From contig JAFGTN010000580.1 in assembly GCA_016934075.1 (NCBI GenBank), positions 1-41,187 of the forward strand: 41,187 nt of DNA, given 5' to 3'. Source of the DNA: Pirellulales bacterium. Its GTDB lineage: Bacteria; Planctomycetota; Planctomycetia; Pirellulales; Thermoguttaceae. Numbering within the stretch: the first letter of the stretch is position 1; each line of letters opens with the position of its first letter. The notes beneath the pieces were generated by a model. That model worked only from the letters and a program-made list of their open reading frames with translations, had not been told where the DNA came from and ran no database searches. Made by a program: the position numbers and the translations under genes. Positions 16,153 to 35,778 of the stretch are shown here, in pieces.

Positions 16153-16293
16153 TTGCTTTTTTCCGCCCGAAATGCTGTGTTGTGGTGTATGTTTTATATG
16201 CGTTGATGTCACCAGGTCAAATTGTTATTCGGGCCACAGAATCGGTGTTACAATCAAAATCCATACTATTTGCGGGCGAAAGCGGAGGAAAAA

Positions 16294-18282: not shown

Positions 18283-19044
18283 TCAACTGTCACTCATTTG
18301 ATTTCCCGCGGGAACCTTTGTTCGGTTGAGCCAATATTGCACGCCGTCCAGCACCCCCGCCGCATGTGGATACATGGAATGATAGACTTCTTGAGAATGC
18401 ATCATCTGCAGTTTTTCGTGAGCGTTGGCAGGTACAACTCCTCGAAAACCACGATCAAACATGGAAGCATCGTTTCCGGTATCGCCCGCGACGATCACCT
18501 CATTTGCATTAAAGTTCCATTTGCCTGCCAAGTGTACTGCTGCCGAACCCTTGTCGACTCCGGCCGGCATTATGTCGAGATCACGCTCGGAACTGTAAAT
18601 GATTTCCGTTCGAAAACCGGCCCGTTCCAGTTGTTGTCGAATTCCCGTCAGGAAATCCGAGGTTAGGCAGTACCCGTAATAGCTTAACTTAAGATCGTGT
18701 TGGAATTCGGCCGGTTGCATCAGCAGTCCACCGTACCTTGAGAGGATGGATATAATGCCTTTCCTGTCCCAACCGGAAATACGGCCCGGCCAGGCTTCGG
18801 TTAAACTGTTACCGTCCGGGTATCGGCGCAATTCGGCGCCGACGCCTCCAATAACCGCGTAGGGTTCCGGTAATGCGGTAGTTTCTATTGCTTGCACCAC
18901 GGAGTCGAACAAACGTCCCGTGGCGTAAACAAGCCGCACTTCTGGCCGATGATGGGCATACCACTGGGAAAATTTTTCCAGAGATTCATCGTCTCCCAGC
19001 AGTGTTCCGTCCAAATCGCTTATGAGAAGACTTCTACTTTCCAA
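18283..19044 (-). CDS. mfpsB: Mannosylfructose-phosphate / sucrose-phosphate phosphatase (HAD)
   Basis: 253 residues. HAD motif I 'LLISDLDGTLLGDD' is near the N-terminus, motif II lies in 'RLVYATGRLFDS' (TGR), motif III is the K of 'AAVHLAGKW' or 'DKGSA', and motif IV is 'VIVAGDTGNDASMFDRG'. 'IIYSSERDLDIMPAGVDKGS' is typical of the SPP/mannosylfructose-phosphatase group (Cof-type HAD IIB). The start is TTG 19044, because GAGGAGGAGG lies right before it; that Shine-Dalgarno sits inside the Glu-rich tail of the upstream synthase gene, which overlaps by 25 bases. The longer track ORF (19176) is a frame inside the synthase. It removes phosphate from the disaccharide phosphate made by the upstream enzyme. 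Confidence 0.8.
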   Translation of the reverse strand: MESRSLLISDLDGTLLGDDESLEKFSQWYAHHRPEVRLVYATGRLFDSVVQAIETTALPEPYAVIGGVGAELRRYPDGNSLTEAWPGRISGWDRKGIISILSRYGGLLMQPAEFQHDLKLSYYGYCLTSDFLTGIRQQLERAGFRTEIIYSSERDLDIMPAGVDKGSAAVHLAGKWNFNANEVIVAGDTGNDASMFDRGFRGVVPANAHEKLQMMHSQEVYHSMYPHAAGVLDGVQYWLNRTKVPAGNQMSDS

Positions 19045-20387
19045 GGTTCCTCCTCCTCTTCGAGCCGCGATGCAGATGGAGCCAGGTGATCGGGATCGTC
19101 GATCAATTCTCGCGGCGTTGATACCAGTTCTATGGTTTGCAAGACGCGTAGCAGTTGTTGCGCCACGCCCGTCCAAGTGAATCGCGATCTCGCCTTTTGC
19201 GAACCGTATTTGGCGAGTTGTTCCTTGACTTGCGGACGCATTATGATCGCGGCGATGGCGTGTCCGAAAGCTTCCGGATCGAAGGGATTGGCATATAATG
19301 CCTCCAAACCCCAGGTCACCTGCTCCCAGAGGCCGCCCTCGGTTGTTACAACCGCGGGAGTGCCGCAGGCCATGGCCTCGACGGCCGTCATGCCGAACGG
19401 TTCGTAGCGGCTACTGAGCGCAAACACGTCGGCGGCTCGATAGTAGTCGGCCAGAAGTTCGTCGGGGATGTAGTCGCGGAACAATACGCGGTGAAGAATT
19501 CCCAATTCGTCGGCCAAGGATCTCAGGCCTTCGACTTGCTTGATTTCCTTTTCGTTCGGTTCGGTGGAGCCGACGGCTAGCAGCAGGCGGACGTCATCCA
19601 CGCGTTCGAATACCACGGACATGGCACGGATAAGCAGGTCGTAGCCCTTGTTATTGGCCATTCTACCAAGCGCCAACACGATCGTTCCTTCCAGATCGAG
19701 ATCTTGCTTGATTGCTTGCCGTGAAGCCAATGAAACCGGAAAGAAACGCGTGTCGTCATATCCGGGCGGGATTACCCTGATTTTTTTCCGGGGAACATCG
19801 TAGGCGCCGGCTTCCAGGATATCTCGTTGTTGGGGAGTTGTGGCAATCAGTACATCGCATTCATCGTAGATTACTTTTTCCTCGCGAATTCTATGTTTGA
19901 AGTTATAGCGTCCTTCCAATTCGTCGGGATCGCCATCCATGTTTTCCCTCTTCCATGCGCCGATCGAATGCGGTGTGTGGATGTGGGGGATATCGAGATG
20001 ATTCGCCAGTGACTGACCGGCAAGCCCGGCATCCCAGTAGTGGCTGTTAATGAAAGCGTAACGCAGCCTTTTTGATTCTATGTAACGCCGGGCGTTGGTG
20101 ACCCATTCGGGGATTTTATAACAAAGCGTTTCCTTGGGGATGAAATCCTTGCCGCCACACGGGAATCGCAGGATACGCACCCCGTCGGAAACCTTTTCCA
20201 CCGCCGGCTGGCCTTCAAAGCGACGAGTAAGGATATCAACACGATAGCCCATCCGTGCCAGGCAATTGGAGAGTTCCAGAACATAGACCACCTGACCCCC
20301 GGTGTCCGGCATCCCGAATTCGGGATTGGCTGAAACGTATCCGTGAGTCGAGATCATCATAATCCGTTCTCTAGGTTTGATTGCCAT
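19020..20387 (-). CDS. mfpsA: Mannosylfructose-phosphate synthase-like glycosyltransferase (GT4)
   Basis: 455 residues, the expected size. The N-terminal domain has 'MISTHGYVSANPEFGMPDTG' and 'GQVVYVLELSNCLARMGYRV', then 'GGKDFIPKE', 'FINSHYWDAGLAGQSLA', 'HTPHSIGAWKR' and 'RVIPPGYDDTRFFPVS'. The C-terminal nucleotide-sugar domain has 'VLALGRMANNKGYDLLIRAM' and 'SSRYEPFGMTAVEAMACGTP' (the E-x7-E motif). The 'HGYV' start and 'PPGYDD.RFFPVS' block agree better with my memory of Agrobacterium MfpsA (GDP-mannose plus fructose-6-phosphate) than with sucrose-phosphate synthase, but both belong to one family and I cannot separate them without alignment. The product is a compatible-solute-type disaccharide phosphate, dephosphorylated by the next gene. 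Confidence 0.75.
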   Translation of the reverse strand: MAIKPRERIMMISTHGYVSANPEFGMPDTGGQVVYVLELSNCLARMGYRVDILTRRFEGQPAVEKVSDGVRILRFPCGGKDFIPKETLCYKIPEWVTNARRYIESKRLRYAFINSHYWDAGLAGQSLANHLDIPHIHTPHSIGAWKRENMDGDPDELEGRYNFKHRIREEKVIYDECDVLIATTPQQRDILEAGAYDVPRKKIRVIPPGYDDTRFFPVSLASRQAIKQDLDLEGTIVLALGRMANNKGYDLLIRAMSVVFERVDDVRLLLAVGSTEPNEKEIKQVEGLRSLADELGILHRVLFRDYIPDELLADYYRAADVFALSSRYEPFGMTAVEAMACGTPAVVTTEGGLWEQVTWGLEALYANPFDPEAFGHAIAAIIMRPQVKEQLAKYGSQKARSRFTWTGVAQQLLRVLQTIELVSTPRELIDDPDHLAPSASRLEEEEEPWKVEVFS

Positions 20388-21255: not shown

Positions 21256-21867
21256 TTAAAGACTTTTTCCGTTGTTTTTTTCTTCTAGTGAACCTTGTTC
21301 TACCGTACCCAACACCTCTTCTGCCAATGGTGTGTCGTCCGCTGTCACTACCGCTTTTTCCAGGTAACGAGATATATCTTCCGGGACGGCGCTTACTACG
21401 CCCGGGATCAATACCGGAGCCGCCTCGATATCCTCGGCATCCATCATTGATGCAATTCTTTGCAGAGTTGACAGGATCATAGTCTGCTCCCACTCCTGCA
21501 GCTTTGCCAATTCCCGATGAAATCGATCCTGCAATAAAGATGGTGCTTCCGCGACTATTTTCGCACCATCCTCGGTCAACTCGACAACCACGCTTCGTCG
21601 GTCGTGGTCACCACGTGTTCGGCTAATAAGGCCCCGACTTTCCAAACGGCTCAGGATGCCCGTTACCGTTGCCGAACCCAAGTGAATGTCTCTGGCAAGT
21701 GCACTCACGGTTATGGGTTGCAAGCGTTGAATTGCCTGCAAAGCCGCAAGTTGTGGTATGGTCAACCCATTCTTTTGCAGTAGCAGACGGGAATGGAGAT
21801 CGATTGCTCGAGTGATTCTCCTCAAAGCGGCAATCACCTGTTCCTCTATTGGCATGATGTTAGACAT
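21256..21867 (-). CDS. MarR-family transcription regulator
   Basis: 203 residues. The winged helix-turn-helix spans ~30-110: 'LTIPQLAALQAIQRLQP', 'ITVSALARDIHLGSATVTGI' (recognition helix), 'LSRLESRGLISRTRGDHDRR' and 'SVVVELTEDG' (wing). A dimerisation helix follows ('ILSTLQRIASMMDAED'). About 55 extra C-terminal residues ('PVLIPGVVSAVPEDISRYLE' and beyond) go past the usual ~145-residue family length. Divergent from the seven-gene methyltransferase operon across ~490 AT-rich bases, it is the obvious candidate regulator of that operon and of its own. MarR-type regulators such as EctR control osmolyte genes in other bacteria; a link here is only an analogy. Confidence 0.88.
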   Translation of the reverse strand: MSNIMPIEEQVIAALRRITRAIDLHSRLLLQKNGLTIPQLAALQAIQRLQPITVSALARDIHLGSATVTGILSRLESRGLISRTRGDHDRRSVVVELTEDGAKIVAEAPSLLQDRFHRELAKLQEWEQTMILSTLQRIASMMDAEDIEAAPVLIPGVVSAVPEDISRYLEKAVVTADDTPLAEEVLGTVEQGSLEEKNNGKSL

Positions 21868-22353
21868 CAGTAGTGACCCTGTTGTGATTAAACTACGTAT
21901 AGAATAATTTTATGTACGAAATACTTTCTGTCAACCCAAAAGGCGTTTTCGCAGTGGAGAAAAACTGTATTTCAGTGGATTGTGGCCATTTTACCTATGT
22001 TATCGGAGCAAGACATTTATCGCTCACAATCAAATATATTACTAACACAAAGTAAAAGTGGGTCTTGTGGGCGGTTTTTCATGGAATAGTAATTGGAGTA
22101 CGTAAATAATATCATACTACGAGTACAAATAATTTCAGTAGATTGTAAATATCGTGCATCATTCATGAGTGAGGAGTCTGTAGAGCCGATTAGGTGTTGA
22201 TAAATCGGGATAAAACTCTAGAATGATGGTTTCTCGAGGCCGCATTAATGTGAAATAAAATATTTGCGTACAACGTATTTATCGATATTAACAACTGATA
22301 TGAAAAAATAAATTTTTGGATACAAACCAAAACAGTTCTTATGGGTGGTATAT
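21868..22353. promoter_or_regulatory. Divergent control region, MarR gene / methyltransferase operon
   Basis: AT-rich, gene-free stretch that must hold both promoters. Related short motifs recur: CTACGTATAGAATAA near 21890, TTATGTACGAAAT near 21910, GTACGTAAATAATA near 22097 and ACAACGTATTTATCG near 22269. These ACGTA-centred, partly palindromic sites could be MarR operators. I see no unambiguous -35/-10 pair. The role of the sites is inference. Confidence 0.4.
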
Positions 22354-23091
22354 ATGGCACTGCGTATTGACCTAAGCGAAAAAATGACAATTGTAATTGG
22401 GGCTTCATCGGGGATTGGTGCCGCGATTGCTCGTCGGTTTGCCGCTTCGGGAAGTCATGTGGTGCTTGCCGCTCGTAGAGAAGAGAAGCTGGCTGAGACG
22501 AAATGCAAAATTGAAGAGTCGGGGGATTCAGCTTCTTGGAAGAAAGTCGATGTGACAAATTACGAGCAGGTTGCGGAGTTGGTTGATTCGACTGCCCGAG
22601 AGCACGGACAAATCGACATTCTGATCAATTGTGCCGGTCACGCAGTCGCCAAACCCCTACTACAGACCACTGTCGAAGAACTCGATGCGCAGCTCGATTC
22701 GAATCTCCGTGGGCTCTGTTATAGTTGCCATGCGACAGTACCACATATGATTCGACAAGGTTCGGGGCATATCATCAACATCGGGTCAATTTGCTCCATG
22801 AACCATTACCCGGAATATGCAACCTACGTTGCCGCCAAGTTCGGGGTGCTTGGATTCAGCCGTTCGCTTTATGAAGAAGTACGACATCATGGAATCCGGG
22901 TGAATGTTCTCTGCCCCGCGGCGGTGAACACGGCCTGGGCCGATGTGGCGGGGGCAAAGTTGCCATGGCCTCAAGACGAACGCCTTCAACCAGAGGACCT
23001 CGCGGAAACGGCTCTATTCTGTGTATCACTGCCCAAGCGAGTACAGGTGGAAAATATCGTACTTTGGCCGACGTGCGAGCCAACTGTGTGA
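22354..23091 (+). CDS. Short-chain dehydrogenase/reductase
   Basis: 245 residues from ATG 22354; GGGTGG lies about six bases upstream. Classical SDR motifs: the nucleotide-binding 'VIGASSGIGAAIARRF' (~14-29), 'AARREEK' after strand 2 (the arginines suggest NADP(H)), 'DILINCAGHAV' (NAG-type), the catalytic Ser in 'IINIGSICSM', Y-x3-K in 'YATYVAAKFGVLG' and 'RVNVLCPAAVNTAW'. It is the first gene of a seven-gene operon; the next start is 12 bases after its stop. Together with the following ProA-like aldehyde-forming reductase it could reduce the semialdehyde to an alcohol; this is inferred from order only. Confidence 0.9.
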   Translation: MALRIDLSEKMTIVIGASSGIGAAIARRFAASGSHVVLAARREEKLAETKCKIEESGDSASWKKVDVTNYEQVAELVDSTAREHGQIDILINCAGHAVAKPLLQTTVEELDAQLDSNLRGLCYSCHATVPHMIRQGSGHIINIGSICSMNHYPEYATYVAAKFGVLGFSRSLYEEVRHHGIRVNVLCPAAVNTAWADVAGAKLPWPQDERLQPEDLAETALFCVSLPKRVQVENIVLWPTCEPTV

Positions 23092-23103
23092 AAGTGTGTG
23101 TTT

Positions 23104-24405
23104 ATGTTTCAATCAAAACAATCTACAGAACACGCCACACAGATCGCCAATACGGCACGCAGTGCTTCACGATATATGGCCTCGGCATCACGAGAACAAA
23201 AGGATACGGCTCTTTATGCAATGGCAGAGAAGCTTGAGGAAAACACTGAAGCGATCATTGATGCCAACCAGCAGGATATCGAGGCGGCTATTTCAAGCGG
23301 TTTGTCTGAAAATACCGTAGCCCGGCTTCGCTTCGGCGAGCAGAAGATACTTGCACGGGCGAGAAGTCTCGGGAAGATCGCCGGGTTATCCGATCCGGTC
23401 GGACAGGCAATTCGCGAAGAATCGCTGTCTATCGGGTTGCATGTAAAGCGTGTTCGGGTGCCCTTGGGTGTGATTTTGATGGTCTACGAAGCGAGGCCGC
23501 ACGTGACCGTGAATGCCGGAGCTTTTTGCCTAAAGTCAGGCAACGCATCGATTCTCCGCGGTGGCTCGGAGGCGGTACACTGTAACATATTGCTGGGACA
23601 ACTCTGGCAAGAGTCGTTGGTGGAAGCGGGCTTGCCGAAAAATGCTATTCAGGTTGTTTCGGGTTCTCATCAAGAGGTTCGTCAACTGTTGGAACTGGAC
23701 GAGTACATCGACCTGGTTATTCCTCGCGGCGGCAAGGGGCTGATTCGGTCCGTAGCCGAGTATTCGAGGATCCCGGTCCTCAAACATTTCGAGGGGATCT
23801 GTCACGTCTACGTTGATAAGCTTGGCAATTTGCAAAGCGCCGTCGACATAGTGCTCGACTCCAAATGCTTGATGCCCGAAGTCTGCAACGCGGCAGAGAC
23901 ACTATTGGTTTCACGAGAGGCAAGCAGCCAATTGAAAGAATTATTGGAGCCGATTCGTCAGCATGGTGTTGTACTCAAGGTGTGTGACGAGGCACGCCGG
24001 ATCGACAATCGGCTTGAGCAGGCGACGGATGAGGATTGGCGGACCGAATACCTTGATATGATCCTCTCGGTCAGGGTAGTCGACGGCGTGGAAGAGGCTA
24101 TTGAGCATATAAACCAATACGGTTCACATCATACCGACACGATACTCACAAGTGATGAATCGCACGCCGCGCGCTTTGTACGCGAGGTGGATTCCGGAGT
24201 CGTACTGGTCAATGCCTCTACGATGTTTTGCGACGGAGAGTCTCTCGGCATGGGTGCCGAAATCGGAATATCGACAGATAAGCTTCATGCACGCGGTCCT
24301 ATGGGGCTGGAAGAACTTACCAGCTACAAGTTTGTCATTCGTGGCGAAGGACATGTAATGGGACAATGGTCCGAAACGCAGAACGTTGCGAATCAACAAC
24401 AATAA
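23104..24405 (+). CDS. proA: Gamma-glutamyl phosphate reductase-like (ProA family)
   Basis: 433 residues from ATG 23104 (GTG 23098 is possible). An aldehyde-dehydrogenase-fold enzyme with clear ProA blocks: 'VPLGVILMVYEARPHVTVNA', 'CLKSGNASILRGGSEA', 'VIPRGGKGLIRSV', 'KHFEGICHVYVDK', the active-site Cys in 'PEVCNAAETLLV' and 'MGAEIGISTDKLHARGPMGL'. Normal ProA makes glutamate-5-semialdehyde from gamma-glutamyl phosphate for proline synthesis. Here ProB (the kinase) is not adjacent. The near-invariant 'NASTRF.DG' reads 'NASTMFCDG', losing an arginine. A shifted substrate is therefore possible, and the symbol is a family name only. It lies 12 bases before the glutamate ligase gene. Confidence 0.85.
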   Translation: MFQSKQSTEHATQIANTARSASRYMASASREQKDTALYAMAEKLEENTEAIIDANQQDIEAAISSGLSENTVARLRFGEQKILARARSLGKIAGLSDPVGQAIREESLSIGLHVKRVRVPLGVILMVYEARPHVTVNAGAFCLKSGNASILRGGSEAVHCNILLGQLWQESLVEAGLPKNAIQVVSGSHQEVRQLLELDEYIDLVIPRGGKGLIRSVAEYSRIPVLKHFEGICHVYVDKLGNLQSAVDIVLDSKCLMPEVCNAAETLLVSREASSQLKELLEPIRQHGVVLKVCDEARRIDNRLEQATDEDWRTEYLDMILSVRVVDGVEEAIEHINQYGSHHTDTILTSDESHAARFVREVDSGVVLVNASTMFCDGESLGMGAEIGISTDKLHARGPMGLEELTSYKFVIRGEGHVMGQWSETQNVANQQQ

Positions 24406-24417
24406 GGAAATGGCTTC

Positions 24418-25779
24418 GTGTCGCAGATCTACGCACAATTTATCGACGGTTTTCGACAGGCGGCCTCATCGCGCGAATTCAATGATCTGCGGCGAATTGG
24501 TGCGGAACTGAAGTTCCCACTGGTAAACTCCGACGGCACGGCGGTGGCCCTGGAGACGGTTCGTGCTTTGTGGCTTTATCTGGTGGATAAAGGCTGGAAG
24601 ATGATCGAGGATCCCGTTACGGGGCAGATCGCCGGGGCAAAGATCGCCGGTCCCTATAACGATACGGTCGCTGCCTGTGAAACCGGATACTGCAAGACGG
24701 AGTTTTCGTTGGCCCATGTCGCCAATTTATTCGAACTCACCGAATCGATCGACGCACTGCGCGAGGCACTATCACCGTTTGCCCAGGAGCATGATGTACG
24801 ATTTCTGGGCTACGGCATCCAGCCGCTGACGCCACCCAGCCGGGACCTGCTATTTAAGAAAGCTCGGTCCTGTTTTTGGGAGCAGGTTCTTCCCTCTAAT
24901 CAGCACATTCCACCGGAAGAGGGCGACGACGTGCACCTGTTCACTGTGAATGCCGGCAGTCATGTGCATGTCAGTATCCTTCCGGAAGATGCCGCACGAG
25001 CGGTAAACGTGCTCAATGGTTTTGCCGGAGCTCAGATCGCCTTGACGGCCCATTCGCCGATTTGGAGAGGTCGGTGCGATGATCGCTATCTCTGCGTAAA
25101 CGAAAAATTGTGGGATTGGTGGGAACCAGCTTTGGGACGTGTAGGCGTTCCGCCAAGACCCTTCAATGATCTGGAAGATTATGTAAACACAATCGAGAGC
25201 CTGGCACCGATTTACGTCAAGCGCGACGGACATCCAATTACGCTCTCCGGGTTTGACACATTTCGAGATTATTACAACTCTGACGACGTGAAAGGCAAAT
25301 CCATTCATGGAGACAGTGTATCCCTCAAGCCAAAACCGGATGACATACGCGTTCACAACTCCTGCTACTGGTTTACGGCCAGGATCTCACAGTACTTCAC
25401 TGTCGAGAATCGAGTATTCGATCAACAACCGCCCGACGAACTCGAGTCGGCGGCCGCATTGACTCTGGGGCTTGTCTCGGCCGCGAATGCCGCATGGGAG
25501 GAATTATCGCAGTACTCCTGGAGCTCACTACGCCAAGCTCGTGAGTCGGCATGCTGCAAAGGTTTAGAAGGTTCTACAGATGAATTCTCCATGGTTGAAC
25601 TTGCCGATCGAATGTTGCAGGTGGCCGACTATGGTTTATCAAAACGGCGGCTGGGTGAAGAGAAATATCTTGAGCCCCTGAGAGAACATCTTCGACGGCG
25701 ATCATGTCCGGCACTCTTCGCCAAGGAGATCTTCGATGAATCGGGGATCAGAGGCATGGTCGAGCTATTGGCATTCTAG
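24418..25779 (+). CDS. Glutamate-cysteine ligase family 2 (GCS2) enzyme
   Basis: 453 residues from GTG 24418. 'RRIGAELKFPLVN' is the family N-terminal G-x-E-x-E-F-P-like strand (metal/glutamate site). 'NAGSHVHVSI' matches the 'QASTHVQVS'-like strand, 'LTAHSPIWRGRCDDRYLCVN' the 'NSP...G...S.R' region, and 'VHNSCYWFTARISQYFTVEN' with 'RVFDQQPPDELESAAAL' the C-terminal 'E.R..D.Q' block. The family activates the gamma-carboxyl of glutamate as an acyl phosphate and ligates an amine (cysteine in GshA/EgtA). No gshB or ergothioneine genes are near. Because ProA-type enzymes consume gamma-glutamyl phosphate, adjacency to the ProA-like gene is striking. The true amine acceptor, if any, is unknown. Confidence 0.8.
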   Translation: MSQIYAQFIDGFRQAASSREFNDLRRIGAELKFPLVNSDGTAVALETVRALWLYLVDKGWKMIEDPVTGQIAGAKIAGPYNDTVAACETGYCKTEFSLAHVANLFELTESIDALREALSPFAQEHDVRFLGYGIQPLTPPSRDLLFKKARSCFWEQVLPSNQHIPPEEGDDVHLFTVNAGSHVHVSILPEDAARAVNVLNGFAGAQIALTAHSPIWRGRCDDRYLCVNEKLWDWWEPALGRVGVPPRPFNDLEDYVNTIESLAPIYVKRDGHPITLSGFDTFRDYYNSDDVKGKSIHGDSVSLKPKPDDIRVHNSCYWFTARISQYFTVENRVFDQQPPDELESAAALTLGLVSAANAAWEELSQYSWSSLRQARESACCKGLEGSTDEFSMVELADRMLQVADYGLSKRRLGEEKYLEPLREHLRRRSCPALFAKEIFDESGIRGMVELLAF

Positions 25780-25838
25780 CGATCCAACCATATCGAAACA
25801 CTGACAATTTCACTTCAATTCAACATGAAAGGACATAC

Positions 25839-27320
25839 ATGCCGGGTACACATTCTCATATCAGGCCAGGAATTCCATCTTCGCTTTATCAACCGTTAGG
25901 TGAGAGTGATCTCAAGCGAATTGTCGAGTCAGCATTCGAGGTTCTCGAGAAATCAGGAGTTGCCGTTTACTCCAAATCCGCACGTGCTGCTTTTCGGCGA
26001 GCCGGCGCGGATGTCGACGAGGACACTTCAGTGATCAGGTTACCGCGCAGTTTGGTTGAGGATGCGATAGACTCCAACCCCTCATCGATAACACTCTTTG
26101 GTCGTGACAATGCAAGCGACTGTATCTTGGAGAAAAACCGTGTCCACTATGGAACAGGCGGGACGGCAATATTTGTACTCGATCCCGAGACCGGTGAGCA
26201 TCGTCCTTCAACTGCCAAAGATGTTGCTCTCAATGCCAAAATGGTTGAGTGGCTCGATAATATTCACCTTTTTACGATCAATGTTTTCCCTAATGACATC
26301 CAGGATCGGGAGGAAATTGATATCAACCGATTCTTTCACGCCTTGGACAACACGACCAAACACGTGATGGGTGGAATCTACTCCTTGGCCGGTTGTAAAA
26401 AGGCCGTCGAAATGGCCGAGATGATTGCAGGAAGTCCGGAGGCACTGCGAGCCAGACCTTTTGTCTCTTTCATTACACTTATCATCAGCCCTTTCAAGAT
26501 CGATGATCATTACGGCGAGATTACATGTTACCTTGCCGAGAAGGGATTGCCTGTAGTTGTTCCCACTGAGCCGATCTGTGGGACAACCTCGCCGGTTACT
26601 TTAGCGGGAAATGTGTTGACGCACATTGCGGAAACTTTGGCCGGCATTACTCTCGTCCAGTGTGTTCAGAAGGGCGCGCCTGGAATCTGCGGCAGTGTCG
26701 GTTCCATAACCAACCTGCATACCATGGACCATGTGGCGGGGGCGATCGAGCGGGCGATGATAAATGCAGCGGTTTCCCAGTTGGCCCAACACTTCGATCT
26801 ACCACTTTATTCGACGGGCGGTACCACGGATTCGAAAGAAGTGGATACTCAAGCCGCCTACGAAAGCAGCATGTCGAGTCTGCTTGTGGCTATGTCCGGA
26901 GCCAACTACATCCATGACATTGCGGGTTTGATGGAGTCGGATCTAACCGTGTCGTATGAAAAACTTGTTTTGGACAACGAAATTCTCGGGATGTGCCAGC
27001 GTGTTTTGCGGGGAATCGAAGTAAACGACGAAACGCTTGCCCTGGACCTGTTGATCGAAAAGGGGCCGGGCAAAGATTTTCTTGCTGAGGAACACACAGT
27101 CCGGCACATGCGTCAAGAGTTTTTCACACCGCAACTGGCAAATCGCGAGAAACGAAATTCCATGGAAGAGGACGATGACGCGTTATCCCGCGCGGAACGA
27201 ATGGTCGAAACGATTCGCACTTCCGAAATAGCCGGGTGTCTTCCAAAAGAACTGCGACGGCAAATTTTGCAGAAATACCCCATGATACAAGTGGAACATA
27301 ATCCACAAGAGAAAGTATAA
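25839..27320 (+). CDS. MttB-superfamily methyltransferase, non-pyrrolysine (paralogue 1)
   Basis: 493 residues, full length for the trimethylamine methyltransferase (MttB) superfamily; ATG 25839 has AAGGA seven bases upstream. Family blocks: 'GTGGTAIFVLDPETGEHRPS', 'HALDNTTKHVMGGIYSLAGC', 'PVVVPTEPICGTTSPVTLAG', 'NVLTHIAETLAGITLVQCVQ', 'STGGTTDSKEVDTQAAYES' and 'GKDFLAEEHTVRHMRQEFF'. There is no in-frame TAG, so no pyrrolysine; such members (for example MtgB for glycine betaine) demethylate quaternary amines onto a corrinoid protein. No corrinoid protein or its methyltransferase is encoded here. The five-base gap to paralogue 2 suggests a paired or heteromeric function. Confidence 0.85.
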   Translation: MPGTHSHIRPGIPSSLYQPLGESDLKRIVESAFEVLEKSGVAVYSKSARAAFRRAGADVDEDTSVIRLPRSLVEDAIDSNPSSITLFGRDNASDCILEKNRVHYGTGGTAIFVLDPETGEHRPSTAKDVALNAKMVEWLDNIHLFTINVFPNDIQDREEIDINRFFHALDNTTKHVMGGIYSLAGCKKAVEMAEMIAGSPEALRARPFVSFITLIISPFKIDDHYGEITCYLAEKGLPVVVPTEPICGTTSPVTLAGNVLTHIAETLAGITLVQCVQKGAPGICGSVGSITNLHTMDHVAGAIERAMINAAVSQLAQHFDLPLYSTGGTTDSKEVDTQAAYESSMSSLLVAMSGANYIHDIAGLMESDLTVSYEKLVLDNEILGMCQRVLRGIEVNDETLALDLLIEKGPGKDFLAEEHTVRHMRQEFFTPQLANREKRNSMEEDDDALSRAERMVETIRTSEIAGCLPKELRRQILQKYPMIQVEHNPQEKV

Positions 27321-27325
27321 GCTTT

Positions 27326-28843
27326 ATGAGTGATATACTTGAACGAGAAGACACGGCGCAAATGAGTCAAAAACAGCGTGAAGGAGTACTGGTAGCGCCA
27401 AGAGACCGGTTATCCGCCGATCAGGTTAAATTGATCGACGGAATATCCCGCGAACTACTGCAAGATCCAGGTGTGCTATGTTACAACGCTGAGGCAGTAG
27501 CGTTTTTTAAGCAAGCAGGAGCCATCATCGAGGACGGAGACGACTGCCCTCGCGTTCGTTTTCCCGATTGGCTCGTTGATGCCGCACTGAAAAGCGCGCC
27601 GTCCAAAGTAGTTCTGGGAGCGCGAGAGCCCGGCAATCGGCTGGTACTCGATGCTGAAGAGCCTCGAGTTCGGTTCGGCAGCGGTGCCGAAACCAACATC
27701 TGGCTGGATGTAAGATTCGAGAACGAAGTTCCGAAATATACCCGGGAATCCGGATCCGTGCGACGACTGCGTGAGTCGGCTCATATCTGCGATCAATTGG
27801 AACACCTCGATTTTTTCATCCGCAATGTCAATATACAGGATCCGGAAATTACTGGAGAGAACAAGGACGTCAACCAATTCTACACCAGCCTGAACAATAT
27901 TACCAAGCATGTGCAAGCCGGTTTGACGAGTTTGGATGCGATAGACGACATCGTCCAGATGGGTCAGATGGTCGCTGGAGGGGCCGCGGCTTTTCAACAA
28001 GAACCGGTACTATCTTTCATCACCTGTGTGATAAAGAGCCCCTTGCAGTTTGTCGACGACACAACCAAGAAACTCATAGAAATCTCGCGCCGTCGAGTGC
28101 CGGTGGTTATCTCCAGTTGTCCAATGGGCGGGGCCACCGGTCCATTCGATGAATTCGCCATGGTCGCACAGATCAACGCCGAATTGCTCGCCGGGATCGT
28201 ATTGAATCAACTCGTATCCTCGGGGGCACCGGTTCTTTATGGGGCCGTGCCGGTACGTACGCGACTCGATAACCTGAACGACATGTATGCGGCAGCCGAG
28301 TTCGTTCATTACAACGTCGACTGCGCCCAAATGGCGCGCTACTATCGATTGCCGTGTTATTCTACGGCCGGTGTTGGCGACTCCTCGACTCCGGGCATCC
28401 AGGCAACCATTGAGAAGATGCTCACCCTGTCGAACGTGCCTCAAGCCGGCGCGCAGTACATGCATTATGCTTTTGGGCTATTGGAGAGGACCAATGTCTT
28501 CTGTCCGGAACAGGCTATTCTGGACGATGCTCAAATTGATCTGATCAAACATACTTTGCAAAGTACCGAAGTAGATCCGGCCGATCGCGATCAAGTGCTG
28601 TCACAGATTCGCGAAGTAATGGCTTCCAGCCACAAGACTTTCATGTACAACCTGCCGCTTCCCAGCAGAGATCCGGTCTACACCTGTTTCCCCTTGGAAG
28701 ACGAGGATCATGGAGCCTTGTACGCTGCCCATTGTCGCCGGAGAGAACTTCTGGAGTCGCCTCGCAATCAGATGCCAACCGACCTTCGGGAAGATATTTC
28801 CCGCCATGTTCCCAATTTGCTTATAAAAACTTTTAACGAATAA
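27326..28843 (+). CDS. MttB-superfamily methyltransferase, non-pyrrolysine (paralogue 2)
   Basis: 505 residues from ATG 27326 (ATG 27362 possible). Same fold and order as paralogue 1 but clearly diverged: 'FGSGAETNIWLDVRFENEVP', 'YTSLNNITKHVQAGLTSLDA', 'PVVISSCPMGGATGPFDEFA', 'QINAELLAGIVLNQLVSSGA', 'STAGVGDSSTPGIQATIEKM' and 'SSHKTFMYNLPLP'. The 'TDSK..D.QA' block of paralogue 1 is 'GDSSTPGIQA' here, and the acidic C-terminal 'F..EEHT..H.R' block is degenerate ('HKTFMYNLP'), so substrate or partner contacts differ. No in-frame TAG. One paralogue may be catalytic and the other a structural or differently specific partner; that is inference. Confidence 0.83.
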   Translation: MSDILEREDTAQMSQKQREGVLVAPRDRLSADQVKLIDGISRELLQDPGVLCYNAEAVAFFKQAGAIIEDGDDCPRVRFPDWLVDAALKSAPSKVVLGAREPGNRLVLDAEEPRVRFGSGAETNIWLDVRFENEVPKYTRESGSVRRLRESAHICDQLEHLDFFIRNVNIQDPEITGENKDVNQFYTSLNNITKHVQAGLTSLDAIDDIVQMGQMVAGGAAAFQQEPVLSFITCVIKSPLQFVDDTTKKLIEISRRRVPVVISSCPMGGATGPFDEFAMVAQINAELLAGIVLNQLVSSGAPVLYGAVPVRTRLDNLNDMYAAAEFVHYNVDCAQMARYYRLPCYSTAGVGDSSTPGIQATIEKMLTLSNVPQAGAQYMHYAFGLLERTNVFCPEQAILDDAQIDLIKHTLQSTEVDPADRDQVLSQIREVMASSHKTFMYNLPLPSRDPVYTCFPLEDEDHGALYAAHCRRRELLESPRNQMPTDLREDISRHVPNLLIKTFNE

Positions 28844-28856
28844 ACCGGAGTATAAT

Positions 28857-30146
28857 GTGAGTGATATTGCTGTTACCGATCAAATGGAAGCCTATAGTGA
28901 GGCTGTTTCCAGTGGATTATATGCTAAAAACTCGGGACTCGTCGGCAAGTATGACAACGTTCGCCGTTACTGGGAAGACGAAACCACGCGAATTTTTCTT
29001 CGCCCCCACCTGCAGCGGCTGATTGAGCGAAAACAGACAATGATGCAACGGGTACGGATTCTGGACCTGGGCTGCGGAAGTGCCGACGGTTATGAACTTC
29101 TCACCGGAGTTCGCCAGCGAGAGTCGAACCTGGAAGAAGTAGAAGTCAACTTGCTGGCTCCTGAAGTGCTCGGTCACTACAAAGGCGTTGATCTCAACGA
29201 AGATCTGCTGGCTCAGGCGCGTGAGATTTACAGAGACAATCCGAAGCTGGAATTTATCCGGGCCGATTTTCTCGATGGAGTTCCAATCGCGAATAACGAA
29301 AAACCGTACGATCTCTATTTCACATCCTACGGAACCTGTTCCCATCACAACGAAGATGAAACATTGATCGAACTGCTTGCCGACATTGCTCGCTGCGTTG
29401 AAAGCTATGCGGTAATCTTCTGTGATTGGCTGGGACGCTACTCATACGAATGGCAGTCGTTGTGGACGAATGACCTGGCCGAAAACCGGAACATGGATTA
29501 TGTGGTTTCCTACATATATGAAGCCGAGGAGCGGGAAGAGCGGAGGGATGAACTGCAGCATCTCTATCTGCGGCTCGTCAGTTTACAAGAAGCCGAAGGA
29601 ATCGTTGCTGAAGCGAGTCGGCGGGCGGGTATTGAGATCAAACCGCTCCGCTACTTTGATCGCGGCACACTTACCGGACGCCACATGGACACGGCTGAAT
29701 ACAACGTCCATGCTCAACCCTTGCGGCAAACAGTCAACTCTCTTCATGAAGCAAACCAGCGTACCAATTTGAATTCGTTATTGTTCGACTATGCTCCGAA
29801 GCCCGGATTCGAGTTTCTCAACGAGTATTTCGAACAACTGCAGATGTGCTGGAACAGGCTCATATACTACGTTGATGAATTGCTGCACCTATACGGCGAG
29901 TCCGATCAACGATTTACATCTGAACCATCAACCATTCCGGCCTCCTATCCACCGGTTCTCGACAACATGATGCGGCGAATGCGGCGGGTCGTCGAGGGAG
30001 TCGGTTGGCTGGAAACGGGTTTGCCGCGCGAGAACATCATCGAGCCGCAATTGGGCTATGCCTTGCGGCAATTGGTCATGGAATTGCAGCAGGGGCTGGG
30101 GTGCGCCCATGGACTTGTCGGGGTTTTCGAAATCGATAAAACCTAG
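28857..30146 (+). CDS. SAM-dependent methyltransferase with long C-terminal domain
   Basis: 429 residues from GTG 28857, with CGGAG upstream. Class I Rossmann methyltransferase: motif I 'VRILDLGCGSADGYE' (~66-80), an acidic ribose-binding residue in 'YKGVDLNEDLLAQAREIY', motif III-like 'LEFIRADFLDG', motif IV 'YDLYFTSYGTCSHHNEDE' and 'YAVIFCDWLGRYSYEW'. The C-terminal ~170 residues ('LLFDYAPKPGFEFLNEYFEQ', 'RRMRRVVEGVGWLETGLP') form a separate helical region I do not recognise. It is the sixth gene of the operon, 13 bases after the second MttB gene. A methyl donor enzyme beside two methyl-removing-type enzymes suggests methylation and demethylation of the same scaffold. Confidence 0.85.
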   Translation: MSDIAVTDQMEAYSEAVSSGLYAKNSGLVGKYDNVRRYWEDETTRIFLRPHLQRLIERKQTMMQRVRILDLGCGSADGYELLTGVRQRESNLEEVEVNLLAPEVLGHYKGVDLNEDLLAQAREIYRDNPKLEFIRADFLDGVPIANNEKPYDLYFTSYGTCSHHNEDETLIELLADIARCVESYAVIFCDWLGRYSYEWQSLWTNDLAENRNMDYVVSYIYEAEEREERRDELQHLYLRLVSLQEAEGIVAEASRRAGIEIKPLRYFDRGTLTGRHMDTAEYNVHAQPLRQTVNSLHEANQRTNLNSLLFDYAPKPGFEFLNEYFEQLQMCWNRLIYYVDELLHLYGESDQRFTSEPSTIPASYPPVLDNMMRRMRRVVEGVGWLETGLPRENIIEPQLGYALRQLVMELQQGLGCAHGLVGVFEIDKT

Positions 30147-30173
30147 CATTCGCATGCGCCGTGGAGATGCGGG

Positions 30174-31445
30174 ATGAAATTCTCAAGGTACAGCCTGGGG
30201 CGTGTCCTCACGATGTTCAGTCTTGTAATTGCGGGAGAGGCCATTTTTTGTCTGCCCTTCCACATAGCAAGGTACTTTCGGCCGACCTTCGTCGACGTTT
30301 TCGGTTTTTCGCAAACGCAACTCGGCGTGCTTGGATCCACTTACGGTATAATCGCAACGTTTGCATACATCTTTGGTGGCCCATTGGCCGATCGTGTTTC
30401 AGTTAGAAAGCTACTGTGTTTTTCGCTTATAATTACAGGGTGCTCGGGCTTCTATCTATTAAAGATTCCGTCATTTCATGAAATGATATGGCTATTCGCT
30501 TTTTGGGGATTCTCGACGATCCTGCCTTTCTGGGCCGCCTTGATACGCGCAACGCGTGAATGGGGCGGCCATGATGAACAAGGGGAAGCCTTCGGAATAC
30601 TGGACGGAGGCCGTGGCCTGATCGCCGCCGTTCTGGCGACTTTGGCATTGTATTTTTTCAGCAGGTACATGCCCGCGAATGATCAAACCGCCACAATGCT
30701 TCAGAAGACCACGGCTTTGCGAAGTACGATGTACGTATATACGAGCGTGTGTTTTGTGGCCGCCGCCTTCGTCTGGCTGTTTGTTCCGGAACCTGCAAAA
30801 GAACGCTTGGCAGCGCGACCTGACAAGCGAACGCGAGGCCATCTTATCCAAGTATTGAAGATGCCCAGCATATGGCTTCAAGCGATAATCATAGTGGGTG
30901 CCTATTGTATGTTCAAAGGACGCGACTATTTTTCGCAGTATGCCAGTGATATCTGGGGGTGGTCGGATGTCAACGCAGCGGGACTAAGCGCCTTAAGTGT
31001 TTGGATAAGACCGCTCGCCGCCATCAAAGCGGGCTTCATTGCGGACTTGTTCAGCTCTTCGCGAATTATCATCGTCTGTTTCTGCCTTACTGGAGCAGCG
31101 TACGTCTCTTTTGTCTTCACACCACCGGGCCAGGCTTTGACTTGGTTGCTCTGGATCAATGTGATTACGAGTTGTCTAGGAATTTTTGCCCTTCGCGGGA
31201 TCTATTTCGCGCTTTTGGAAGAATCCAGTATTCCAAAGGAAATGACGGGTACAGCCGTTGGAGTTATATCGTTTATTGGATACACCCCTGAGATATTCAT
31301 GCCTCTCTTAGGTGGATGGCTCATCGATCGATGGTCAGGTGGTGTTACCGGATACAAAGTGCTCTTCATGTTTCTTTGCCTAATGTCAGTTGTCAGCATT
31401 ATTGCTACGCTCGTGCTTCGAAGAGCAAATCGGTCGCGAGCTTAA
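30174..31445 (+). CDS. MFS transporter
   Basis: 423 residues with about 12 hydrophobic helices and the central charged loop at ~200-225 ('KERLAARPDKRTRGHL'). The loop between helices 2 and 3 carries an MFS A-motif 'GGPLADRVSVRKLL'; helix-rich segments include 'FGFSQTQLGVLGSTYGIIAT', 'AIIIVGAYCMFKGRDYF' and 'MTGTAVGVISFIGYTPEIFM'. It resembles the organophosphate/nitrate-nitrite side of the superfamily, so an organic anion or zwitterion substrate is plausible. It is the last gene of the operon, 27 bases after the methyltransferase, and likely imports the substrate or exports the product of the pathway. Confidence 0.88.
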   Translation: MKFSRYSLGRVLTMFSLVIAGEAIFCLPFHIARYFRPTFVDVFGFSQTQLGVLGSTYGIIATFAYIFGGPLADRVSVRKLLCFSLIITGCSGFYLLKIPSFHEMIWLFAFWGFSTILPFWAALIRATREWGGHDEQGEAFGILDGGRGLIAAVLATLALYFFSRYMPANDQTATMLQKTTALRSTMYVYTSVCFVAAAFVWLFVPEPAKERLAARPDKRTRGHLIQVLKMPSIWLQAIIIVGAYCMFKGRDYFSQYASDIWGWSDVNAAGLSALSVWIRPLAAIKAGFIADLFSSSRIIIVCFCLTGAAYVSFVFTPPGQALTWLLWINVITSCLGIFALRGIYFALLEESSIPKEMTGTAVGVISFIGYTPEIFMPLLGGWLIDRWSGGVTGYKVLFMFLCLMSVVSIIATLVLRRANRSRA

Positions 31446-31694
31446 ATCTACGCCTAAGGGCACTATTGTCCAATTTTGGATAATATTGTGTAGCACGACG
31501 CATATTCTGCATATACCCACTTGCGATTCCTGGAATCAAAGCAGGTGTTACAAGAGGTGCACAAGAATCCGCTGTTCATATTCAAGATCTGCCGCAATTG
31601 CCATGAATATGATCCAAACCAGCGGTTTTTTATCTGGAAGTCGAGCGTAGCAATGCTTTGGCGGATTGAGATTTCCGCAACGTAATCGCAATAG

Positions 31695-31730
31695 AAAAGG
31701 CCGCTTACGACAATTCGCAAGCGGCCTTTT
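31695..31730. terminator. Bidirectional hairpin terminator
   Basis: AAAAGGCCGCTT and AAGCGGCCTTTT form a 12-bp perfect stem around a 12-base loop, with T-runs on both strands. It serves the minus-strand tRNA gene that ends six bases away and could also stop transcripts from the plus-strand operon. Confidence 0.85.
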
Positions 31731-31735
31731 GGGAA

Positions 31736-32219
<484 letters not shown>

Positions 32220-32306
32220 GTGTCAATTCTTAATTTAAGAGGTTGGCATTACGGTGTGGTAGCGACCAACGTGCCGCGGACCACTTCATTAAATTCCAAC
32301 TTTTAA
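32220..32306. repeat. Dispersed structured repeat, copy A
   Basis: About 85 bases sharing with copy B (40711-40795) the blocks TCAATTCTTAAT, GTTG, CCAACG.GCCGCG, ACCACTTCATTAAA and CCAAC in the same order and orientation. Possible pairings: outer GTTGG/CCAAC and inner GTGGT/ACCAC. It ends 22 bases before the PAS gene start, but copy B is not in a matching leader position. Confidence 0.65.
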
Positions 32307-32328
32307 TGCAAGTAAGGGATTGCGGATT

Positions 32329-33225
32329 ATGGCTAACGTCGACAGTCCAAAACAGGGATTGCCCAGTCAGAGTTTTCCTAGTGAGAAACTCCCCGATTCG
32401 CGGGCGGGTTCGATATGTCTTGATGAGAAGGCGGCTGATCCGACTAAGCGGGAGTGGTTTCTCCAGGCGTTTGATGCCAGTCCGGTTGCTGTCAGTATCA
32501 GCACGCTGAGTGAGGGGCGGTTCATAGAGGTCAATCGCAGTTTTTTGGAGATGACCGGTTATACCCGCGACGAGATCATAGGCAAAACGGCCAAGGAAAT
32601 CGGATTCTGGTATCGGCCGGATGATCGTCATGAACTGATTCAAATGCTGCATAAGACCAGCGGACCGCTACGTCATGCTGATTTTCCGATTCGCACCAAG
32701 ATGGGCGAGCCTTGTCTGGCTGGGCTATCGGTGAATTTGATCGATCTGGAAGGATTACCCTGCCTGCTGATCGTTTACCGCGAGTTGGCGAAAGATGCAA
32801 AAGATAGTGGAAACGATCTTACGGCGTATCTCAATTGGGAGGTTCGCCGCTTGCGCGATCAATTAGAGCATTGCGTCGCTGAACTTACTCGAATCGGTGA
32901 CACGATATCGTGCCCGGCCCATGATGTACCCGTGAAGACGATCGGTTCGTCGCTTGGTACACTTGTACCAACATTAGTTACCTCATTGAGATCGTTGCAG
33001 TCGATCCGGGAATCATTGAACTCCGACGAGCAACACGACGACCTTTTCCATCTGATATTAGGTTTGCAACGTAACACGATGCTCGAGGCCATCGAGGATG
33101 CCGTCAAGGTGATAGAGAAGACCAAGAAAAAATTCAAGAGCAAGGATCTGGCGGAACTCCGTTTGCGTCTTTGTAGCGTTTTGCAAAAAAAAGATGAAAT
33201 TCAACCTTGCTCTTCCGATTTTTGA
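32329..33225 (+). CDS. PAS-domain protein
   Basis: 298 residues from ATG 32329, with AAGGGA nine bases upstream. One PAS domain spans ~40-150: 'REWFLQAFDASPVAVSISTL', 'GRFIEVNRSFLEMTGYTRDE', 'IIGKTAKEIGFW' and 'PIRTKMGEPCLAGLSVNLID'. The rest is helical ('LNWEVRRLRDQLEHCVAELT', 'DAVKVIEKTKKKFKSKDLAE') with no histidine kinase, GGDEF or HTH domain, so it is a sensor or adaptor lacking its own output. A strong terminator separates it from the chemoreceptor gene downstream. It may feed into the nearby MCP/CheW unit, but this rests on location only. Confidence 0.8.
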   Translation: MANVDSPKQGLPSQSFPSEKLPDSRAGSICLDEKAADPTKREWFLQAFDASPVAVSISTLSEGRFIEVNRSFLEMTGYTRDEIIGKTAKEIGFWYRPDDRHELIQMLHKTSGPLRHADFPIRTKMGEPCLAGLSVNLIDLEGLPCLLIVYRELAKDAKDSGNDLTAYLNWEVRRLRDQLEHCVAELTRIGDTISCPAHDVPVKTIGSSLGTLVPTLVTSLRSLQSIRESLNSDEQHDDLFHLILGLQRNTMLEAIEDAVKVIEKTKKKFKSKDLAELRLRLCSVLQKKDEIQPCSSDF

Positions 33226-33336
33226 GCTATGTTACTTTGGAGGCGTGGGTAATCACGCCCGATTGACACGCGAGTACCTTGTGTTCACGGCGTGGCAAGA
33301 GCTTTAATGACAGGACGACCAGGCCTGTTTTTTGAA

Positions 33337-33394
33337 GGCACAACAAGAGCGCTATTTCCGTTTCTACGGAAGTGTTCTTGTTGTGCCTTTTTTT
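33337..33394 (+). terminator. Strong rho-independent terminator
   Basis: GGCACAACAAGA pairs with TCTTGTTGTGCC (12 bp), with an inner TTTCCG/CGGAAG stem, followed by seven T's. It ends the PAS gene transcript and lies inside the false N-terminal extension of the chemoreceptor ORF. Confidence 0.92.
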
Positions 33395-33501
33395 GTGGAT
33401 TTTTTACCGGTTTATTATTGGTTATGTTTTCCGCCCTGTATTCACGCATTGGGGAAATGGGCAGGAAGTATCAAAGTCGAACACGTATTTGGAGAATGAA
33501 A

Positions 33502-35778
33502 ATGTCGTTTTTAAAGAATTTGAAAATCAGCACCAAACTGTCGGTGGGATTCGGCGTGATTGTAGTTATCGCATTGGTGTTGGGCTTTTACGGTTGGAGC
33601 AGCTTACGTTCGGTCGATAACGCAATCGGCGTGGTGACCCAGGCCAACTCGAGCGTCGGGAGTTTATTGGACTCGCGGGTTCAGGAGAAAATTTTCACCA
33701 ACCGTGGATTTGCGACTGTGGGCGACGAGACAAAAGATAGCGCTGATAAATGGGCGGAAATCAACAAATCCACACTGAAAAAGTTAGGAGAGTTGGGAAG
33801 CTCGGCGCACATCAGTTCCACTCAGGCAGAGTTGGTCGCGGCATCGATCAGAAATGTCAATGGTTATGGCGAAGCATTCAAGCTAGTTGTGGAAGCCCGG
33901 CGTACACAGGACAAGGCTTTTGACGACTGGGCAAAAATCGGCTGGCAGATCACCGGAAATATTAATCAGGCTATGGACGGTGTGATCATTCCCGCTCGCA
34001 AAGTTGCCGAGGAATCGGGCGATGTGAAACAGCTCGCGAAATGGGCGGATATCGACCATAGGCTTAGTAGCCATGTTATTCAGCCGTTTTTTCTATTGCG
34101 GGTTACGGCCGTGTATCTGATGGTTACCAAGGCTGACGCGCAGTGGGAAGATTATAAGAAGCAACTGGCCAAAGTCCAGCGGGGCGCGGCGGATTGGACC
34201 GAGCTTGTGAAAGATAATTCCAAGCTCAGTGCCGCGGCCGGTGAAATACAAAAGAGTCTGGAGCAATATGCCTCAACGGGCGAATCATACTATGGTGCCA
34301 TTGTGCAGACACGTAATTCGACGGATGTCATGATCGCCGATGCTCGCGCGACGGTCGACAACGTAGAGAAATTACTTGCCGATGTTGATGGGGACATGCA
34401 AAGCACGATCGGAGGCAGCCAGTTTATGATGGTATTGCTTGGTATTGCGGGTGTAGTGTTGGGCGTATTCCTGGCTTTCATCACAACTCGTGCAATTGTC
34501 GGTCCGGTGAGGAAATGCGTTGCCAGTATCACGGCTTTGTCTAACCAGGACTTCAGCGTAACGGCCGACGTGGACAGCAAGGACGAACTCGGTCGTATGG
34601 CGATGGCCATCAATACATCGATCCAAAACACGAAGAAGGCATTCGATGATATCGAGGAAGCCGCTGCGAAAGAGAAAATAGCTCAGGCGGAGCGGGCCGA
34701 GATGGAACGAAAAGCGGCCGAAGTCGAGCAGCGACGGCAAGAGGAAGAGGCTCAGCGCGAACGCGAAGCGGCCGAAGCTGAGCGGCGGCGGCAGGCAGAG
34801 CAAGCCGAAATCGAACGTCGACAGGCCGAAGAAGAACGCCATAAAGCCGAAATCCTTCGAGGCAAGGTAGATAGCCTATTGGAGGTTGTTCGTGCAGCCG
34901 CCCAAGGTGATCTAACAGCGAAGGTTACCGTCGAAGGCGACGAGGCGATTGACGAACTTGCCTCGGGCATCAAGCAAATGCTTAGTGATCTCTCCGAAGT
35001 AATCGGCCAGGTTACCGAGAGTGCCGCACAATTCAACGAGGGTTCGAGGGTTATTGCCGAGAGTTCGCAAACGCTTGCCAGCGGAGCACAAATTCAAAGC
35101 ACCAGCGTGGAAGAGATTAGCGCTTCGGTCGAGGAGTTGACACAGTCGATCAACACCGTCAACGATAATGCCACCAAAGCCGACAAGGTTGCTCGCGAGA
35201 CCAGCCACTTGGCTGAAGAAGGCGGACAGGCGGTGCAGAAGTCGATCGAGGCCATGGAGTTGATCCGAACAAGTTCGGATCAGATCGCCGAGATCATTCA
35301 AGTGATTTCCGAAATCGCCAGCCAGACGAATCTACTGGCACTGAATGCGGCGATTGAGGCTGCTCGAGCCGGCGAGCATGGTATGGGATTTGCTGTGGTG
35401 GCCGATGAGGTTCGCAAGTTGGCCGAGCGATCGAATCAGGCGGCCGGCGAGATTACCACGCTGATCAAGGAATCGAGCAACCGCGTTCAGGAAGGATCGC
35501 AACTGAGCGAGATGACCGGTGAATCGCTAAAGAAGATAGTAGATGGCGTGGAGGCCACGGCCGCCAAGATTTTGGAAATCGCCACGGCAACTGTCGAGCA
35601 GGCATCGAACGCCAAGGAAGTATCAGTGGCAATTGCCAGCGTGGCCGAGGTCACCGAACAATCGGCCGCAGGCAGTGAGGAAATGGCCTCCAGCAGCGAG
35701 GAGCTTGGCGCACAGGCCGGAGCGCTTCGCGATCTGGTCGGTCGTTTCAAAACGGACGCCTCCAGATCATCATACTAA
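33502..35778 (+). CDS. Methyl-accepting chemotaxis protein
   Basis: 758 residues from ATG 33502 (GGAG seven bases upstream; ATG 33496 possible). The track start at 33292 would translate through a terminator and is rejected. TM1 is ~11-33 ('[18 protein letters not shown]') and a helical periplasmic sensor domain runs ~34-300. TM2 is ~305-328 ('[18 protein letters not shown]') and a HAMP domain follows at ~333-385. Next is a strongly charged Glu/Ala/Arg coiled coil (~385-453) and a second HAMP-like region ('[16 protein letters not shown]'). The signalling hairpin tip '[20 protein letters not shown]' is at ~603. No C-terminal CheR-binding pentapeptide is seen ('[11 protein letters not shown]' ends it). 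It signals through CheW (next gene) to a CheA not in the window. Confidence 0.93.

Follow-up and report, generated by a model that had tools for sequence, protein, structure and literature searches.

To our knowledge, most proteins of the MttB superfamily are without a known substrate. Every member that has been characterised demethylates (PMC8604678, PMC12155760), and methylation by an MttB would therefore be new. It is already established that one distant corrinoid protein can be common to several MttB/MtgB enzymes, as in Ruegeria pomeroyi (PMC12478193) and in Eubacterium limosum (PMC8604678).

Two tandem MttB paralogues, MttB1 and MttB2, are compared with these systems here. They lie on a stretch of 41,187 nucleotides from a Pirellulales bacterium (the window), which is contig C879 of a 7.4 Mb assembly in 929 contigs that is 79% complete. 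Both are proposed to be substrate-specific methyltransferases that depend on a corrinoid and belong to a single, horizontally mobile operon. Their partner in methyl exchange would be an MttC/MtgC-like corrinoid protein whose gene lies in trans, on contig C615. This protein would be charged or discharged by an adjoining CH3-THF:corrinoid methyltransferase and MetF, and reactivated by RACo (contig C246). Together with a SAM methyltransferase (SAM-MT) and an ATP-dependent activating enzyme (GCS2 plus ProA here, AsnB-like elsewhere), the MttBs would process a small N-methylated, betaine-like compatible solute. Their most likely role would be to help make that solute, with methyls from both SAM and CH3-THF. 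As a whole, this reading of corrinoid-dependent methyl transfer in betaine-like compatible-solute metabolism, with synthesis the likelier direction, is given roughly an even chance.

Table 1. Genes of the operon and its divergent regulator (window positions).
Feature	Position	Strand	Basis or remark
MarR-family regulator	21256..21867	-	Divergent; Pfam
SDR (short-chain dehydrogenase/reductase)	22345..23091	+	First operon gene; found in two relatives
ProA (glutamate-5-semialdehyde dehydrogenase)	23098..24405	+	Adjoins the GCS2 gene wherever the ProA/GCS2 pair occurs
GCS2-family ligase (plant glutamate-cysteine-ligase-like)	24418..25779	+	Family match
MttB1, non-pyrrolysine MttB-superfamily methyltransferase, 493 aa	25839..27320	+	PF06253; own clade
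MttB2, more diverged MttB-superfamily protein, 505 aa, C-terminal segment replaced but conserved	27326..28843	+	PF06253; own clade; model
Class I SAM-dependent methyltransferase, long C-terminal extension	28857..30146	+	Invariant MttB2 neighbour
MFS transporter	30174..31445	+	Last operon gene

The operon, which is larger than a preliminary description of this DNA had stated, runs SDR-ProA-GCS2-MttB1-MttB2-SAM-MT-MFS on one strand, with intergenic gaps of 6, 12, 59, 5, 13 and 27 bp (Table 1). Next to the cluster, MarR homologues also occur in the Desulfobacterota locus L112 and at three more loci from planctomycetes. The GCS2-family protein is probably an ATP-dependent carboxylate-activating enzyme. 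No full ProA other than that of the operon was found in this 79%-complete assembly, and ProB lies on another contig; the operon's ProA may serve proline synthesis as well. A role of GCS2 as a substitute for an absent glutamate kinase was considered and rejected; it is not needed, since ProB is present in all five ProA/GCS2-type genomes tested. No riboswitch was found before the operon and no repeats were found flanking it. A tRNA-Arg(acg) gene at 31736-31809 (-), 290 bp downstream of the operon, is a possible integration site. Upstream of the operon lie GH100 invertase-like and sucrose-synthase-like genes (16222-17583 and 19020-20387); a sucrose-synthase-like glycosyltransferase is also found upstream in L023, and an invertase-like fragment upstream in L038. 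Sucrose is a compatible solute too.

The preliminary description had reported tandem, strongly diverged, full-length MttB paralogues without in-frame TAG, followed by a SAM enzyme and with no corrinoid partner alongside. The present analysis agrees with it on each of these points, the last for the window genes scanned. Both ORFs are intact from ATG to TAA without an in-frame stop of any kind, contain the motifs quoted for them, and match the full-length family profile PF06253 at 322 bits (MttB1) and 194 bits (MttB2) against a cut-off of 25; the MttB2 match ends at profile position 423 of 500. The two proteins are 31% identical over 403 aa. The position of Pyl334 in MttB is occupied by Thr329 in MttB1 and by Val in 23 of 25 MttB2 members. 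With no TAG or pyrrolysine at position 334, neither paralogue is a pyrrolysine-dependent TMA methyltransferase, and both fall below the TIGR02369 equivalog cut-off of 525 bits (MttB1 431, MttB2 245). The Rfam model PYLIS_3 matches the MttB1 gene above its gathering score (26823-26922 (+), 42 bits), starting from codon 329, and also matches the MttB1 genes of L112 and L127. Pyrrolysine insertion was rejected for MttB1 because no TAG is present, and the match most likely reflects coding similarity.

MttB1 retains the G-T pair at the corrinoid-contact loop as well as the HT...EFF.P.L tail. In MttB2, pairwise alignment places G-S there, an invariant Glu lies near the loop, and the usual GPG...HT...EFF.P.L motif of the tail is replaced by a conserved motif of its own. 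This tail had been called degenerate, a term that does not hold: it is divergent, because it carries that motif. In Methanosarcina barkeri, the equivalent segment is a dimerisation loop that contacts MttC (PMC9842639). The replacement at this loop speaks against the proposed reading, and by analogy MttB2 may therefore contact its corrinoid protein in another way. The best matches of the predicted MttB2 model are MttB and MtgB structures, with a TM of 0.78 to MttB 7xcl; the MttB TIM-barrel fold is thus assigned to MttB2 from the model and to MttB1 from sequence only.

A maximum-likelihood tree of 74 rows places the two paralogues in separate clades, with support of 100/98 for MttB1 and 100/100 for MttB2, the latter on a stem of 2.07 changes per column. 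The two clades join a canonical Desulfobacterota MttB (100/95), and grouping with pyrrolysine MttB is weak (80/73). MtgB of Desulfitobacterium hafniense (2qne) and the Sinorhizobium meliloti homologue are placed elsewhere, so neither paralogue groups with MtgB. In view of the weak deepest forks and some long rows, reliance is placed only on the two clades and on the exclusion of MtgB. A decayed, non-catalytic MttB2 would explain the long stem and the loss of the usual tail motif. However, its frame is open in the window and in relatives, more than 100 columns are invariant across 22 members and the tail is conserved in its own form, which makes decay very improbable.

No gene for a corrinoid protein or a CH3-THF methyltransferase was found in the window, where a Pfam scan covered 21256-35778 and several outer genes and the outermost ORFs were read by eye. 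From this missing neighbour, the preliminary description had considered a corrinoid-independent use, and it had suggested that MttC-like proteins be sought elsewhere in the genome. Such a protein is encoded on contig C615 (6.3 kb). It is 211 aa long, contains B12-binding_2 and B12-binding domains, and matches the MtgC model (203 bits, cut-off 370) and the methyltransferase-cognate corrinoid model (195 bits, cut-off 215) at near full length, with scores below both cut-offs. Its gene is followed by those of a MetF-like protein and a pterin-binding (Pterin_bind) CH3-THF:corrinoid-type methyltransferase. A RACo activase with a ferredoxin-like (2Fe-2S) N-terminus is encoded on contig C246. Beyond it, B12-binding_2 has a single match in the genome, to a protein about 355 aa long. 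Neither MetH nor a MetH B12 domain was found in the genome, an absence that is provisional because the assembly is only 79% complete. One free corrinoid protein and a pterin-binding methyltransferase elsewhere, with MetH provisionally absent, constitute a split arrangement of the MtgB/C/D type. Four further MttB loci are present on contigs C578, C527, C447 and C397, none of which holds a B12-binding_2 gene. In the parts of the contigs read, no MttB gene of this genome is accompanied by a corrinoid gene, and distance from MttC is therefore the rule there. A missing corrinoid neighbour is thus weak evidence for corrinoid independence.

The preliminary description had also named what would refute it: a corrinoid protein and activase co-regulated elsewhere in the genome, with both paralogues in ordinary MtgB-like clades. 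The first part was largely found, as a corrinoid protein with a CH3-THF methyltransferase, MetF and RACo elsewhere; on the second, both paralogues stand outside the MtgB-like clades of the superfamily tree.

In Desulfobacterota, the corrinoid gene lies within the cluster itself. The SAM methyltransferase was found in 7 of 56 genomes of the Desulfobacterota class. In L040 and L111-L113, the order is MttB1, CH3-THF:corrinoid methyltransferase, MttB2, MttC, SAM-MT and AsnB; in L113, MttB1 runs past the contig end. L112 further holds MarR, a MetH-type B12 activation domain, a second AsnB and, downstream of the cluster, SAM synthetase (MetK) and SAH hydrolase (AhcY). RACo adjoins the cluster in L109 and L111. 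The complete genome G223 has the set in two parts, one being activation domain-MttB1-CH3THF methyltransferase and the other MttB2-MttC-SAM-MT-AsnB. In L127, a SAM riboswitch (7179-7275 (-)) precedes the activation domain-MttB1 operon by about 500 bp, on the opposite strand.

These clusters bear on the idea that the two paralogues form a heteromer, joined by the SAM enzyme, and have given up corrinoid use. The operon without a corrinoid gene, the replaced C-terminal segment of MttB2 and the co-inheritance of the two paralogues would fit such a heteromer. However, a corrinoid protein is present within the orthologous clusters and in 19 of 21 module genomes, and MttB1 retains the G-T pair and tail motif of its corrinoid-dependent relatives. 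Corrinoid independence was dropped as the leading idea once the partner was found in trans and in orthologous clusters, and it is now regarded as improbable. Corrinoid dependence of each of the two enzymes is, in turn, very probable.

When the SAM methyltransferase was used as a query against 85,462 species genomes, 22 loci were found in MAGs labelled Pirellulales, other Planctomycetes, Phycisphaerae, Brocadiia, Latescibacterota, Spirochaetes, Lentisphaerae and Desulfobacterota. Many of them carry sample prefixes that presumably denote soda lakes (CSSed, B1Sed), the Great Salt Lake, Zodletone spring and the Black Sea. MttB2 adjoins the SAM methyltransferase in all 22, and MttB1 adjoins the pair in 19; the other three are two short contigs and one locus with MttB1 elsewhere in the genome. 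The SAM methyltransferases are 63-75% identical to the window's copy, except for the most distant, in L040 (48%). Between the distance matrices of the three proteins MttB1, MttB2 and SAM-MT, correlations of 0.84, 0.77 and 0.87 were obtained with L040 left out (Mantel p 2e-4), which indicates that they move as a unit. They form a co-inherited module in several phyla, mostly in soda-lake or saline MAGs. A Latescibacterota copy of SAM-MT (71%) is closer to the window's than a Phycisphaerae copy (66%), so horizontal transfer is likely. Only 3 of 197 genomes of the window's order contain the module, the nearest module-bearing relatives being Pirellulales MAGs. No earlier report of an MttB1-MttB2-SAM-MT, MttB/AsnB or biosynthetic-MttB module was found in the literature searched, and as far as that literature shows, the module, built of known parts, was previously unreported.

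Free MttC-like proteins in the 19 module genomes are 38-84% identical to that of the window's genome, one of them truncated. Within the window's family, 15 of 16 sampled genomes encode such a protein, compared with 4 of 102 in its order outside the family. Its presence in the family is therefore not module-specific, and the association is informative for other lineages only. In L025 (428-1600) and L043 (7137-8390), MttB1 and MttB2 are separated by a DUF362 protein that has two 4Fe-4S motifs and might donate electrons when the corrinoid is reactivated. A free-standing MetH-type B12 activation domain (weak match) adjoins a P-type ATPase on the small contig of L116 (272-973 (-)); it could represent either an additional activase or contamination from binning.

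In the module, the ATP-dependent partner that activates carboxylates is of one of two alternating kinds. ProA with the GCS2-like ligase is found in the window, L022, L023, L041, L043 and L115. The main-type AsnB-like copies with a clear start (L024, L026, L029, L031, L035, L036, L038, L040, L042 and L109-L113) begin with MSG or MAG and lack the catalytic Cys2. They should therefore be unable to use glutamine, and could be ammonia- or amine-dependent ligases. In several other module loci, a betaine-type ABC transporter takes the place of the MFS transporter. That of L022 has a ProV-type ATPase and an OpuAC/OsmF-like binding protein, and seven loci have an ABC permease and binding protein resembling those of L022. 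A MarC-family membrane protein was seen beside or near transporter genes in L022, L023 and L041.

The SAM methyltransferase matched no NCBIfam model and had no useful PDB sequence match, and a fold search returned only distant or generic class I methyltransferases. It is not recognisable as GSMT or SDMT of classical betaine synthesis. Deducing its substrate was abandoned, as its Streptomyces plasmid relatives are 23-24% identical, their neighbours are uninformative and the fold matches are generic.

The ligases, SAM methyltransferase, MetK and AhcY suggest synthesis, whereas the uptake transporters and known MttB biology suggest breakdown. In the latter case, MttB1 and MttB2 would remove methyls step by step from an imported betaine and pass them to the corrinoid protein encoded in trans, thereby feeding CH3-THF, and SAM-MT and the ligases would act on what is left after demethylation or on an unrelated product. 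All characterised homologues demethylate (PMC8604678, PMC12155760, PMC12478193), several clusters come with uptake transporters of the betaine type, and CH3-THF:corrinoid methyltransferase and MetF are at hand. On the other hand, SAM-MT, AsnB or GCS2 plus ProA, MetK and AhcY are costly biosynthetic enzymes. Moreover, four Desulfobacterota genomes (G222, G223, G228 and G242) already have a separate MttC-MttB-MttB cluster, which in most of them includes a CH3-THF methyltransferase of its own, DUF1638 and RACo, so the corrinoid set of the module, a second one there, probably has another job. Breakdown is thus a plausible explanation that stays short of probable.

The preferred reading of methyl transfer in solute synthesis builds on the partner genes present in the genome, the in-cluster partners of the orthologous clusters, the co-inheritance of the three genes and the fold of the MttB2 model. 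That a compatible solute is handled is fairly likely; this is hinted at by the ProV-type ATPase, the OpuAC/OsmF-like binding protein, the soda- and salt-lake MAGs and the sucrose-synthase-like and invertase-like genes upstream. The anabolic direction, hinted at by the two ligase types, MetK and AhcY in L112 and the MetH-type activation domain, is favoured slightly; the betaine-type uptake transporters count against it, as they fit catabolism too. A more specific pathway is offered only tentatively, in which the MttBs would methylate. In anaerobic and halophilic bacteria, CH3-THF (via MttC) and SAM would then together supply the N-methyl groups of a compatible solute derived from an amino acid, with MttB1, MttB2 and SAM-MT each placing one methyl. 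Because the module keeps two new MttB clades together with a SAM methyltransferase and with ATP-dependent ligases across phyla, it offers a concrete argument for a non-catabolic MttB function. If anabolic, it would offer energy-limited halophiles a cheap route to methylated osmolytes from CH3-THF.

Compared with known systems, the window's genome resembles the MtgB/MtgC/MtgD system of R. pomeroyi (PMC12478193). There, pfam06253 proteins are likewise encoded apart from a shared free corrinoid protein, a pterin-binding methyltransferase and a second MetF, and MetH is typically absent, as no MetH B12 domain was found here. The SAM methyltransferase with AsnB or GCS2 plus ProA sets the present module apart, none being described in the parts of that report considered, and its paralogues lie outside the groups of D. 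hafniense MtgB and the S. meliloti homologue. MttB of M. barkeri, known with MttC (PMC9842639), shares its fold with the MttB2 model and is the nearest solved relative of MttB2 by sequence. However, its pyrrolysine is Thr or Val in the window paralogues, and TMA-Pyl chemistry is therefore impossible. MtgB of D. hafniense (2qne, 9yce) is non-pyrrolysine, has the same fold and is, by phmmer score, about as near to MttB1 as Pyl-MttB is, but it belongs to a separate clade and differs in conserved pocket-region residues. The MtpB/MtcB/MtyB enzymes of E. limosum with MtqC/MtqA/RamQ (PMC8604678) differ in being catabolic, with one main substrate each and without a paired paralogue and SAM enzyme module; as in the present system, several non-pyrrolysine MttBs are served by a single corrinoid protein, a single THF methyltransferase and a single activase.
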